Assembly: GCA_015490835.1 (NCBI GenBank)
Contig: WFXA01000174.1
Span: 1-36,010 of the forward strand
Reading direction: 5' to 3'
From: Flavobacteriaceae bacterium
GTDB lineage: Bacteria > Bacteroidota > Bacteroidia > Flavobacteriales > Flavobacteriaceae
DNA: 36,010 nucleotides
Part shown: one piece after another, positions 6,492 to 36,010 of the stretch
Layout of the letters: every line of letters begins with the position of its first letter
Numbering within the stretch: the stretch's first letter is position 1
Position numbers and translations under genes: made by a program
The notes under the pieces: model-generated
What the model saw: only the letters and a program-made list of their open reading frames with translations
Told to the model about the DNA's origin: nothing
The model's database searches: none

Positions 6492-8372
6492 ATGGGCGAT
6501 CAAAAAGTAAATAAAATTAAAGGAAAACATACAAAAGCAAGGTTTACACAACATTTGTTAGAAGACTTAAAAGCATTGGATTATATGCTTAAAAACAACT
6601 TGTTTGATGACGATACAATTCGTATTGGTGCCGAGCAGGAATTTTGTTTGGTAAATCAAGATTGGAGACCCTCTAAAAAAGCCTTAACTATTTTAAAAAA
6701 TATTGATGACCCTCATTTTACTACCGAAATTGCAAAATATAACCTAGAGCTTAACTTAGATCCTGTAGTATTAACAAAAAATGCTTTCAGTAAGGTTGAA
6801 AACCAATTAGCTAAGTTACTTCAAAAAGCAAAAAATAAGGCTGCTATTGCCCAAAACAGAATTGTTTTAACCGGAATTTTACCCACTATTACCAAAAACG
6901 AATTGCAACTGGATTATATGACCCCTAAACCTCGATACTATTTATTAAACAAAATGCTTAAAGCGTTGCGAGGTGGCGACTTTAGATTGCATATTCGTGG
7001 CGTAGATGAGCTAAATAACGTACACGATTCGGTTTTGTTTGAAGGTTGCAATACCAGTTTTCAAATGCACTTGCAAATTCCTTCGTACGACTTTATTGCC
7101 AGTTACAATTGGGCTTTGGCAATTTCGGGAGTGGTGTTAAGTATGTGTGTAAATTCGCCATTGTTACTAGGACGAGAGTTGTGGAGCGAAACACGTATTG
7201 CCTTATTTAAACAAAGTATCGATACGCGTAAATCTTCGTATGTTTTAAAAAACCAAGAAGCAAGAGTGGCGTTTGGTAACAATAGCTGGGCTGAAGGTAA
7301 CATTGTTGAAATATATAAAAACCTTATCGCACAACATGACAATATTGTTACTAAAACTATTTCTGCTAACTCACTTGAAGAAATTAAAAACGGAAATACT
7401 CCAAAACTGGAAGCCCTATGTACTTTTAACGGAACTATTTATAGATGGAATCGAGCATGCTATGGAGTAACAAACGGAAAGCCACACTTACGAATTGAAA
7501 ACAGATACATTCCCTCCGGTCCCTCTATAAAAGATGAAATGGCTAACTTTGCTTTTTGGGTGGGTTTAATGATGGGAAGACCCAAAAAATATAATGCTAT
7601 GCAAAAAGTGATGGATTTTAGAGATGCCAAAGCAAATTTCATTAAAGCGGCTCGATACGGAAAAGAAAGCCTGCTCTTTTGGGATAATACTTACGTTCCG
7701 GCTTCAGATTTGGTGTTACATAAATTTTTACCAATTGCAAAATCCGGTTTGCAAAAAATGAATATCGATGACCAAAGTATAAACGAATTATTAGGCATTA
7801 TTGAAAAACGTGCAAAAACACAAACAGGTGCAGAATGGATGATAACGAACTATCGTAAACTTTTAAAAAACAACAAACCCGATGATTCGCTTCAAATTTT
7901 AACAAAATCTATTTATGATTTTCAAAAAAATAACACTCCGGTCTCCCAATGGCGAATGTTACAGGATAACGAAAAATTAGATGCAAAAAAAAATACAGAA
8001 GTAGCACATATTATGACAACCCGACTTTTTGTAGTACATAAAAACGATTTGGCTTTACTGGCAACGAGCATTATGAAATGGAAAAACATTCATCACGTTC
8101 CGGTAGAGAGTAAAAAAGGAAAATTAGTAGGTTTACTTACTTGGAAACATTTATTGAAATTTCAAGAAAAACAAAAATCAACTGCATTAAATCATTATTT
8201 CGTCAAAGATATTATGGTAAAAAAAGTAATAACCGTTACACCACAAACAAGCATTAAAAAAGCAGTAACATTAATGAAAAAACACCAAATAGGATGTTTG
8301 CCGGTGATACAAAAAAAATACTTGGTAGGAATAATCACAGCAAAAGATTTAATCGAAGCATCCTATGCGTAA
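6492..8372 (+). CDS. Glutamate-cysteine ligase family 2 (GCS2)-like domain with C-terminal CBS-domain pair
   Basis: N-terminal RIGAEQEFCLVNQDWRPSKKALTILK and related GCS2-type motifs; C-terminal two CBS repeats (VAHIMTTRLFVVHKND...; VKDIMVKKVITVTPQTS...GCLPVIQKKYLVGIITAKDLI). Confidence 0.85.
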   Translation: MGDQKVNKIKGKHTKARFTQHLLEDLKALDYMLKNNLFDDDTIRIGAEQEFCLVNQDWRPSKKALTILKNIDDPHFTTEIAKYNLELNLDPVVLTKNAFSKVENQLAKLLQKAKNKAAIAQNRIVLTGILPTITKNELQLDYMTPKPRYYLLNKMLKALRGGDFRLHIRGVDELNNVHDSVLFEGCNTSFQMHLQIPSYDFIASYNWALAISGVVLSMCVNSPLLLGRELWSETRIALFKQSIDTRKSSYVLKNQEARVAFGNNSWAEGNIVEIYKNLIAQHDNIVTKTISANSLEEIKNGNTPKLEALCTFNGTIYRWNRACYGVTNGKPHLRIENRYIPSGPSIKDEMANFAFWVGLMMGRPKKYNAMQKVMDFRDAKANFIKAARYGKESLLFWDNTYVPASDLVLHKFLPIAKSGLQKMNIDDQSINELLGIIEKRAKTQTGAEWMITNYRKLLKNNKPDDSLQILTKSIYDFQKNNTPVSQWRMLQDNEKLDAKKNTEVAHIMTTRLFVVHKNDLALLATSIMKWKNIHHVPVESKKGKLVGLLTWKHLLKFQEKQKSTALNHYFVKDIMVKKVITVTPQTSIKKAVTLMKKHQIGCLPVIQKKYLVGIITAKDLIEASYA

Positions 8373-9567
8373 GATTTATAGTAAGGCTTTGGATAAAAAC
8401 CTGGAAGTATCTAGGATTATTTGTAAAATTGAAGGTAAAAAACCCGGACCTACTATTATCTTTATGGGTGGAATTCATGGTAATGAACCTTCAGGAGTTT
8501 TTGCATTGCAGCAAGTTTTTTCAGAAATAAAAAAGAAAAAAAAGGATATTTTCGGAAGTTTATTCGCTTTAAGCGGAAATCTATGGGCACTCGAAAAAGG
8601 AGTTCGTTATCAAAAAGAAGATTTAAACCGACTTTGGACAGAAGACTCCATTAAAAAGATTATTAAATCAGGCAATAACCAACTGTCGGAAGATGCCCTG
8701 CAATTAAAAGAAATCTACAAAACACTTGTTGCTATTATCGAAAATCATTCACCGCCATTTTATTTTTTCGATTTGCATACAACTTCCGGAGAAACCATTC
8801 CGTTTATAACCGTTAATGACAGCTTGTTAAACCGGAAATTCACAAAGCAATATCCGCTTCCGTTAGTGTTGGGTATCGAAGAATATTTAGAAGGTCCCTT
8901 GTTAAGTTATATCAACGAATTGGGTTATGTCGCATTTGGGTATGAAGCCGGACAGCACGATGCGCTTTCTGCAATTGAAAACCACGTGGCATTTATTTAT
9001 CTATCTCTGTATTTTTCGGGAGTGTTTAAAGAAAAAGACCCTGCGTTTTATCAATATTTTGAAGTGCTTGCAAAATCGTCCATTCATCGTATTCATTTTT
9101 ACGAAATATTTTTTAGGTATCAAATTTTACCTAGAGAACATTTTAAAATGCAACCCGGATTTGTAAATTTTCAACCCGTAAAAAAAGATCAAGTAGTCGC
9201 TTTTTCAAATAATAAAAAAATAAAAGCAATAAAAACCGGTAAATTATTTATGCCTTTGTATCAAGGGCAAGGCGAAGACGGATTTTTCCTTATTAAGAGA
9301 GTTCCTAAAATCTTTTTAAAAATTTCATCGGTATTAAGAAGAGTTAGATTTGATAAGTTGTTACCCTTACTTCCGGGAGTTTCTTGGGCATCCGGAACTA
9401 AAAATGCGCTTTTGGTCAATAAAAAAATAGCTTGGCTTTTTGCCAGAGAATTTTTCCACTTATTAGGCTATCGGAGCAAACAAGTTAATAAAACGCATTT
9501 GCTTGTAAAAAATAGGGAAGAAGCAGCAAAATATGAAGATTATAAAAACGAAAAATGGCTGAATTGA
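8365..9567 (+). CDS. Succinylglutamate desuccinylase/aspartoacylase family (M14-like) zinc hydrolase
   Basis: GGIHGNEPSG (HxxE zinc motif) and FFDLHTTSGETIPF; overlaps upstream CDS by 8 nt. Confidence 0.88.
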   Translation: MRKIYSKALDKNLEVSRIICKIEGKKPGPTIIFMGGIHGNEPSGVFALQQVFSEIKKKKKDIFGSLFALSGNLWALEKGVRYQKEDLNRLWTEDSIKKIIKSGNNQLSEDALQLKEIYKTLVAIIENHSPPFYFFDLHTTSGETIPFITVNDSLLNRKFTKQYPLPLVLGIEEYLEGPLLSYINELGYVAFGYEAGQHDALSAIENHVAFIYLSLYFSGVFKEKDPAFYQYFEVLAKSSIHRIHFYEIFFRYQILPREHFKMQPGFVNFQPVKKDQVVAFSNNKKIKAIKTGKLFMPLYQGQGEDGFFLIKRVPKIFLKISSVLRRVRFDKLLPLLPGVSWASGTKNALLVNKKIAWLFAREFFHLLGYRSKQVNKTHLLVKNREEAAKYEDYKNEKWLN

Positions 9568-34416: not shown

Positions 34417-34761
34417 TTATTTTTTACTTTTTAGCAACTCTCTTAAAAATAATATTTCTTCTTTTAAAGTATTAACATGTTCTTTATCTGCATTAATGAT
34501 GGTGTCTACATTATAAGCTTGAGGGCTATCATTATTATGTTGATTAATTATTTTGGCAGATTTTTCGTCGAACAAATAAGCAACGGTTATATCTAAAATT
34601 TTGGCAATTTTTTGTATTTTTGGTGCGGTTAGTCTCGAATCACTTTTTTCTAATCTACAATAATTGGATTGTGATATTTCTAACTCAAAAGCCATAGCTT
34701 CTTGAGAGATGCCTTTAGTTTCTCTTATTTTTCTAATTCGGCTACCTATTTTATTATTCAT
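34417..34761 (-). CDS. Xre-family helix-turn-helix regulator with C-terminal coiled-coil-like tail
   Basis: MNNKIGSRIRKIRETKGISQEAMAFELEISQSNYCRLEKSDSRLTAPKIQKIAKILDITVAYLF; ATG 34761 preferred over the TTG at 34803 used in the track. Confidence 0.88.
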   Translation of the reverse strand: MNNKIGSRIRKIRETKGISQEAMAFELEISQSNYCRLEKSDSRLTAPKIQKIAKILDITVAYLFDEKSAKIINQHNNDSPQAYNVDTIINADKEHVNTLKEEILFLRELLKSKK

Positions 34762-34814
34762 AATATGAATTATTTTAAACGTAAAAGTAATATTATTATT
34801 CAAAATATAAATTA
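34751..34814. repeat. Two near-identical 22-nt direct repeats, 42-bp offset, at the 5' end of the HTH gene
   Basis: 34751 TTATTATTCATAATATGAATTA vs 34793 TTATTATTCAAAATATAAATTA (20/22 identical). Confidence 0.7.
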
Positions 34815-34845
34815 AAAATCTTAAAAAAATATAAATATTGCGCCG

Positions 34846-34861
34846 TGTAACTTTTGTTACA
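34846..34861. promoter_or_regulatory. Candidate operator palindrome in the divergent intergenic region
   Basis: TGTAAC-TTTT-GTTACA, perfect 6-bp arms, about 53 bp upstream of the leader-peptide ATG. Confidence 0.45.
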
Positions 34862-34914
34862 TAGTGGATGCCGAAAAACTAAAGAGTAGGTAAAACTAAA
34901 ATAATAAAAATATT

Positions 34915-35109
34915 ATGAAATTAACTTTAGACGCTCTTAAAGAAAGAGCAGATGCAGTAGCATCAGAAGAATTATTAAACTCTATTTCAGGAGGAACAGA
35001 GAATGCTTGTCATGATACTTTGCCAGAGCCCGTATTACCCCATACAGGAAATCCAATTGTAGATCCTATTACAGGACTTATTTGGTGGTGGGATTTACTA
35101 ACTGAATAG
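34915..35109 (+). CDS. Double-glycine-leader peptide precursor (bacteriocin/RiPP-like), 64 aa
   Basis: MKLTLDALKERADAVASEELLNSISGG | TENACHDTLPEPVLPHTGNPIVDPITGLIWWWDLLTE; typical GG cleavage-site context LLNSISGG. Confidence 0.75.
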   Translation: MKLTLDALKERADAVASEELLNSISGGTENACHDTLPEPVLPHTGNPIVDPITGLIWWWDLLTE

Positions 35110-35131
35110 TGAGAAACCAAATCTGTAAAGA

Positions 35132-35168
35132 CAGAATAAGACGATTATCTTTTAATCGTCTTATTTTG
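35132..35168 (+). terminator. Strong intrinsic terminator after the leader-peptide gene
   Basis: AATAAGACGATTA-TCTTT-TAATCGTCTTATT 13-bp perfect stem, extendable by G-U, A-T and C-G pairs (35132-35168), with T-rich 3' arm. Confidence 0.8.
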
Positions 35169-35235
35169 TGTACAATAATGCTAATTGATTAAAAAAACTA
35201 TACTTAAAAGTTTAAATACTATATTTCTATAAATA

Positions 35236-35892
35236 ATGAAGATAATAAAACATATACTATATACTTTAGCTTTTATCTCAATAGCACTTATAGCTATTTA
35301 TTTATATACAAAGGGTGTTTTAACCACTTTAATTAGTGATAAATTGACTATTAGGGATGAGTTTTATTTGCATATAAAGAAAGAGGCAGGTTTTACTTTC
35401 TATATTATTGTTATAGTTTTATTTGTTCCCATACTTGAGGAAGCACTTTACAGATTAGGTCTTAAATTTTCAATAAATGGCGTAGCAGCATTATGTTTGG
35501 GTATTAGTTATTCGGTTTATTTATTTTTTCAGCCAAGTGATATTAACTGGAAGAATCCATATGTTTTAATAACATTTTGGAGTGCTTTTATTTTTACCTT
35601 TTTTTTATATCAATTTTTATTAAAAAAGCATCAATCATTTGTCATAAACTTCTATAAAAGAAACACAAACTTAATAATTCTTGTATCAATAATTTCCTTT
35701 GCATACAGTCATATAACACTTTATGGGCAACAGGATCTAATAAATAATTTATTTCTCAGTCCATTGATACTTCTCCCTTATGTTATTGCTGGTGCATTAT
35801 TTTCCTTTTTGCGAATTAAGTTTGGATTTTGGTATGGTGTTTTAGGGCATATTTTTTGGAATTCATTGGTATTTTACCTATCTAATTATTAA
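35236..35892 (+). CDS. CPBP family intramembrane glutamic endopeptidase (CAAX/bacteriocin-processing type)
   Basis: 218 aa polytopic; motif 1 EEALYR, motif 2-like SFAYSHITLYG, motif 3-like GVLGHIFWNSL. Confidence 0.85.
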   Translation: MKIIKHILYTLAFISIALIAIYLYTKGVLTTLISDKLTIRDEFYLHIKKEAGFTFYIIVIVLFVPILEEALYRLGLKFSINGVAALCLGISYSVYLFFQPSDINWKNPYVLITFWSAFIFTFFLYQFLLKKHQSFVINFYKRNTNLIILVSIISFAYSHITLYGQQDLINNLFLSPLILLPYVIAGALFSFLRIKFGFWYGVLGHIFWNSLVFYLSNY

Positions 35893-36010
35893 AAAAATGA
35901 TTTAAACAGAATATCAGTTATTAATACAATTAAATTACTCTTTTATAAAGACAACTCTACTTCATTTAATAAACTATCAATTTTAGTTCAGTATGTTCGA
36001 TGAAATATTA

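Follow-up and report, generated by a model that had tools for sequence, protein, structure and literature searches.

Double-glycine peptides exported by C39 ABC transporters (class II microcins, LahT-type PCAT) have a GG leader with hydrophobic spacing and go with a C39-ABC and HlyD pair (PMC6363468). The alpha-KG-HExxH RiPP hydroxylases (TIGR04267/IPR026337), such as ChlB/ChlH, PflC/PosC, BpmH and PesO, form another described group. Hydroxylation of His, Asp, Gln, Phe or Pro has been published for members of this group, as has backbone cleavage (PMC12636437, PMC13060819). They are encoded beside a short precursor peptide, and their partners are radical SAM or MNIO. Fold families with activity on histidine or in carboxy-SAM synthesis include the OvoA/CARME histidine N-methyltransferases and CmoA. 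The CPBP/Abi proteins of bacteriocin loci were reportedly described by Kjos in 2010, and SagE and SilX belong with them. SilX, a CAAX/CPBP protease of Streptococcus, is required for bacteriocin regulation via a signal peptide, and no immunity role was found for it (PMC9298176).

We consider it likely that the locus studied here belongs to a RiPP-type secreted-peptide cassette of Flavobacteriales and represents its 5' part. The regulator, the precursor and a CPBP protease lie in the window (the whole stretch of DNA analysed, 36,010 nucleotides). Modification would fall to the next gene (gene 3), and export to a C39/HlyD pair. The cassette is apparently undescribed, and its secreted peptide is probably antagonistic. 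The computational support covers homology, gene order, co-occurrence and fold. The GG leader with hydrophobic spacing and the C39-ABC and HlyD genes are shared with the class II microcins and LahT-type PCAT. However, the family has its own leader and core, with an invariant Cys-His pair, and cassettes of the window type add a putative tailoring enzyme, a CPBP and a secreted amidohydrolase. The CPBP has the family and motifs of those in known bacteriocin loci and likewise sits beside a bacteriocin-like gene. Unlike them, it has a Gram-negative host, a divergent sequence and a putative role.

Layout of the locus

The contig of the window (C174) stops at 36010, which is its exact length, inside the gene after CPBP. 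The features at this end are:

34417..34758, minus strand: Xre/Cro-type HTH regulator, 114 aa (PF01381), divergent from the peptide gene
34846..34861, no strand: candidate operator TGTAAC-tttt-GTTACA, an inverted repeat in the divergent intergenic region
34915..35109, plus strand: 64-aa GG-leader precursor with Cys-His motif; homologues with E down to 5e-12
35131..35167, plus strand: long stem-loop between peptide and CPBP genes (-24.7 kcal/mol, z=-5.1)
35236..35892, plus strand: CPBP (Rce1-like, Abi) intramembrane glutamic protease, 218 aa (PF02517), motifs intact
35893..36010, plus strand: putative gene 3, 5' end only, frame broken and cut by the contig end (alignment with gene-3 N-termini; profile match)

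A sequence-only reading had proposed the regulator, the divergent GG-leader precursor and the CPBP protease, and all three ORFs were confirmed at the positions listed. Two other regions of the contig were read by eye. A type III Mod-like DNA methyltransferase is truncated at the left contig end (3-1502, minus strand), and a glutamate-cysteine-ligase-like protein fused to CBS domains is followed by an aspartoacylase-like gene (6492-9567).

The Xre ORF spans 34417-34803 (minus strand). It is readable from a TTG at 34803, with a likely ATG start at 34758, and matches PF01381 (HTH_3) above the cut-off (E=1.1e-10). The intergenic region between regulator and peptide holds five inverted repeats, against 3.1 in shuffles, and they are not common to the relatives. 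For these reasons, we treat TGTAAC-tttt-GTTACA as no more than a candidate operator. Sigma-70 promoter matches in this analysis equalled the shuffled number, and sigma-70 is the wrong promoter type for Bacteroidota.

The peptide family

The precursor leader consists of residues 1-27, MKLTLDALKERADAVASEELLNSISGG, and terminates in SISGG. The core, TENACHDTLPEP..., carries the Cys-His motif of the family. The GG-leader pattern by itself is at chance level: the window has one short ORF of this kind, and shuffles have 0.55. Thus, the relatives had to decide whether the peptide is real.

The 64-aa query alone gave a match at E<=0.1 in 16 of 400 Flavobacteriaceae genomes. Beyond its own genome, nine matches with E from 5e-12 to 6e-3 were short GG ORFs, and the weaker ones lay mostly within long unrelated frames. 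A tenth peptide locus was found in Kordia aestuariivivens, with 75% identity across the leader and the first core residues. The aligned homologues have a common leader, MSKLSLxALKERAxAVASxELLNSISGG, and the Cys-His pair follows, usually four residues on. These two are the only invariant residues of the core, which is highly variable past them. Among the loci counted outside the window, GGx(4-8)CH is present in 15 of 16. The exception is L027, whose peptide copy presents a stop codon and CY in place of CH. The GG..CH peptide of L056 does not have the usual start codon at the expected place. Judged from these alignments, the peptide family is real, with homologues in other Flavobacteriaceae, and the GG-leader precursor proposed earlier is borne out by homologous leaders in relatives.

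The window peptide and the tested homologues had no precursor-family match in Pfam or NCBIfam, and a literature search on the GG/CH peptide found no paper. These two results agree with the earlier suggestion of an undescribed system. We found no homologue of the peptide in 18 other genomes of the same genus, so the locus is accessory. One match within the genus (G006, E=0.55) was discarded as chance; it sits in a long frame read as FolD. The cassettes L053 (2580-8835) and L055 (3812-11839) hold two GG/CH precursors each.

The cassette in related genomes

A profile of gene 3 was searched in 400 genomes of the family and 398 of the order. It added six loci, and each of them has a GG..CH peptide. 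We counted 16 loci outside the window: ten found via the peptide and six via gene 3. Neither route selects for CPBP, C39 or Xre, so their counts are independent; the gene-3 counts are so only in the first ten loci. The recurrent order is [divergent Xre], GG/CH peptide, hairpin, CPBP, gene 3, [amidohydrolase or TPR lipoprotein], C39 ABC transporter and HlyD. Gene 3 encodes about 375 aa and the transporter about 730 aa. The amidohydrolase is present in four of the 16 loci and carries an apparent lipoprotein or secretion signal.

Gene 3 is intact in 12 of the 16 loci and broken in three (seven and two, respectively, in the first ten). The broken copies are those of L025, split into two frames, L026, a remnant, and L056. 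The C39 transporter is found in 11 of 16 loci, with L051 included. In L051 (8256-10062), a ThiF/E1-like protein and an alpha/beta hydrolase (acyl-transferase/LuxD-like) lie between the GG/CH peptide and gene 3. A survey of biosynthetic clusters in Flavobacteriaceae (PMC10734526) does not mention HExxH or C39.

In 10 of the 16 loci, the CPBP gene adjoins the peptide or is part of the cassette. With only 1-9 CPBP genes per genome (nine genomes counted), such linkage far exceeds what chance would give. As a partner, CPBP is less regular; for example, L024, L030 and L031 keep peptide and gene 3 without it. The divergent Xre flanks the cassette in three of 16 (L028, L029 and L056). The sequence-only reading had asked whether the peptide recurs with CPBP and Xre; it does with CPBP, and with Xre only in a few loci.

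The CPBP of the window scores 24.7 bits against PF02517 (gathering cut-off 22.4). The motifs EEALYR (68), FAYSH (155) and HIFWN (205) are intact (EExxxR/FxxxH/HxxxN). Of the HMM checks suggested earlier, the CPBP model was thus matched above its cut-off, and the precursor had no match. The equivalog M949_0222 (NF052640) gave 37.1 bits, below its curated cut-off of 220, and a literature search on M949_0222 found nothing. This protein may serve immunity or extra processing. The example of SilX means that an immunity role must not be assumed. In L026, gene 3 and the exporter are lost while the peptide and CPBP are retained, which is how an immunity-keeping strain would be expected to look; it is one case.

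Hairpins occur at the matching position between peptide and CPBP in L022, L023, L025, L028, L029 and L056, and their sequences are unrelated. No hairpin was found at this position in L026 or L052. The stem-loop might be a read-through attenuator or a 3'-end stabiliser. Its position is conserved and its sequence is not, which suits a device yielding more precursor than enzyme.

Gene 3 and its predicted fold

The last 118 bases of the window, directly after the CPBP stop, encode NRISVINTIKLLFYKDNSTSFNKLS. Positions 35905-35979 align with the N-termini of most gene-3 homologues. The window tail is also the best match to the gene-3 profile in the window (14.0 bits, E=4e-4; the next has 3.4 bits, E=0.7). 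This frame has no usual start codon and runs into a stop. Therefore, either gene 3 is broken in this genome or misassembly has altered the contig end. The assembly lacks the remainder of the gene.

On the gene-3 proteins of the relatives, every family model stays below its cut-off. One member matches TIGR04267 with E=7e-4 and 19.6 bits (curated cut-off 40), spanning its HQTGH motif. The gene-3 profile gave only a chance globin match against the PDB sequences, so a fold search was needed. For the Kordia protein, AlphaFold2 with 13 sequences gave a model with a pLDDT of 89.9 and a pTM of 0.91. With Foldseek, it matched five PDB chains at E<=0.001, and the next match was at 0.7. Four of these come from the structure of the ChlB HExxH domain, 8s5f (E=3.6e-9 to 7e-8, probability 1.00, TM 0.56/0.63). 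The other is 22ob, SjiH with Ni (E=5e-7). According to this model, the gene-3 protein folds like the iron/alpha-KG peptide oxygenases (alpha-KG-HExxH).

The metal motif is HEGAH in L054 and HQxxH in most members, and it is lost in two tandem paralogues. Since most have HQxxH, two have no motif and none exceeds the curated cut-off, we regard gene 3 as a putative enzyme only. Compared with the alpha-KG-HExxH RiPP hydroxylases, it shares the predicted fold and the position beside a short precursor peptide. On the other hand, the identity is only 10-14%, below the curated cut-off, most members have HQxxH, and there are no fused domains. The partners also differ, with GG-leader precursors and a C39/HlyD exporter in place of radical SAM or MNIO. 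In L030 (7314-9956) and L031 (7174-9846), tandem paralogues, one with HQTGH and one motif-less, flank a GG peptide with two CH motifs. They are possibly an enzyme and pseudoenzyme pair.

Exporter genes in the same genome

The genome has two C39 transporters, both on other contigs. The earlier statement that no such transporter is visible before the window ends is correct and applies to the window only. Contig C268 is 3733 bases long and includes a C39 transporter in full, together with the second half of an amidohydrolase and the beginning of HlyD. Its transporter and those of the four closest cassettes share 81-84% identity, against only 28-31% for the transporter of contig C108. The latter also has different neighbours and was rejected as the cassette partner. 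The C108 locus (L005) encodes a C39 ABC transporter of 729 aa with a thioredoxin-like gene upstream, and no peptide substrate was found for it.

Close relatives of the C268 amidohydrolase occur in four of 400 family genomes (this one, G347, G365 and G407). All four carry the peptide, and in the last three the amidohydrolase sits inside the cassette. About 1.7 kb, which would hold the remainder of gene 3 and the missing first half of the amidohydrolase, was not found in the assembly, and C174 and C268 are not physically joined. From the identity pattern of the transporter and the co-occurrence of amidohydrolase and peptide, C268 very probably continues the window cassette across this gap. Of the options left by the sequence-only reading, maturation and export genes located elsewhere agrees with the content of C268 and with the gene-3 start in the window tail.

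Alternative explanations

The other option of that reading was a minimal system, in which peptide and CPBP alone are the unit and CPBP cuts or releases the peptide without a C39 exporter. Two loci would fit it. G292 (L026) keeps peptide and CPBP intact with a gene-3 remnant, and its genome has no cassette-type exporter. Likewise, L025 has both genes intact beside its split gene 3. However, the usual partners across the 16 loci are the C39 transporter, HlyD and the protein with the predicted alpha-KG-HExxH fold. The genome of the window holds a transporter of the cassette type as well, and several loci keep peptide and gene 3 without CPBP. We consequently reject the minimal module, which is very unlikely. 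It is still a little less probable that C268 exports another, unrelated peptide and that the window cassette has no exporter. The two contigs end inside genes and have no physical link, as this would require. But among the 400 family genomes the amidohydrolase is confined to those carrying the peptide, the transporter shows the identity pattern of the cassettes, and no second GG/CH peptide was found in this genome.

The secreted peptide could also be a quorum-type pheromone signal, with CPBP as the processing protease and Xre as responder or regulator. The requirement of SilX for bacteriocin regulation by a signal peptide (PMC9298176) points in this direction, as does the divergent Xre in four loci, window included. 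Nevertheless, Xre stands beside only three of the 16 other peptide loci, there is no recurrent receptor kinase, and the variability of the core past CH fits an antagonistic peptide at least as well. This makes a signal rather unlikely. Decay of the locus in this particular genome is somewhat more probable than a signal role, though still less likely than not. Here, peptide and CPBP (immunity) would persist and the modifying enzyme would already be a pseudogene, which is compatible with the cassette as our preferred account of the whole family. The broken frame in the window tail speaks for decay, and so do the three broken gene-3 copies in relatives and the stop in the L027 peptide. In contrast, the ORFs of the peptide, CPBP and C268 transporter are intact, and contig ends often carry assembly errors, of which the break may be one.

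Proposed working of the cassette

In the RiPP-type cassette, the Xre repressor would control the divergent precursor gene. The hairpin after this gene would provide the 64-aa precursor in excess of the downstream proteins. In complete cassettes, the predicted iron oxygenase of gene 3 would modify the core, most likely at the Cys-His just past the GG. The C39-peptidase ABC transporter, with its HlyD adaptor, would cleave at the GG and export the peptide. The secreted amidohydrolase or TPR lipoprotein, together with CPBP, may be trimming or immunity factors. For the window, the exporter part would be on C268. Gene 3 is apparently frame-broken here, which could mean either export without modification or a cassette in decay.

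The L053 cassette has a CmoA-like relative of carboxy-SAM synthase (TIGR00740, E=2e-47, below cut-off). It also has a relative of the carnosine/4-mercaptohistidine N-methyltransferases (PF07942, E=8e-13). By eye, L054 and L055 have neighbours that resemble these in sequence. These companions are of the same fold families as OvoA/CARME and CmoA. Unlike the known proteins, they are encoded beside GG/CH peptides, and the window cassette, as far as seen, is without them. Companions of the histidine type lead us to infer that His is a target of modification. A further and speculative step, which we think improbable, is that the Cys-His pair is the substrate of a new oxidative chemistry of the HQxxH enzyme (e.g. 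a thioether/thiohistidine crosslink or beta-hydroxy-His). In L053-type cassettes, carboxymethylation or methylation of His by the CmoA-like/CARME-like pair would then leave an ovothiol-like group in a secreted peptide.

Significance

These results define a peptide family that Pfam and NCBIfam do not contain; its core has a short invariant motif, and a putative enzyme recurs with it. The predicted fold of gene 3 indicates an alpha-KG-HExxH hydroxylase that profile searches miss, so such cassettes escape profile-based mining. Finally, the Cys-His motif and the histidine-type methyltransferases point to a modification site that can be directly tested.
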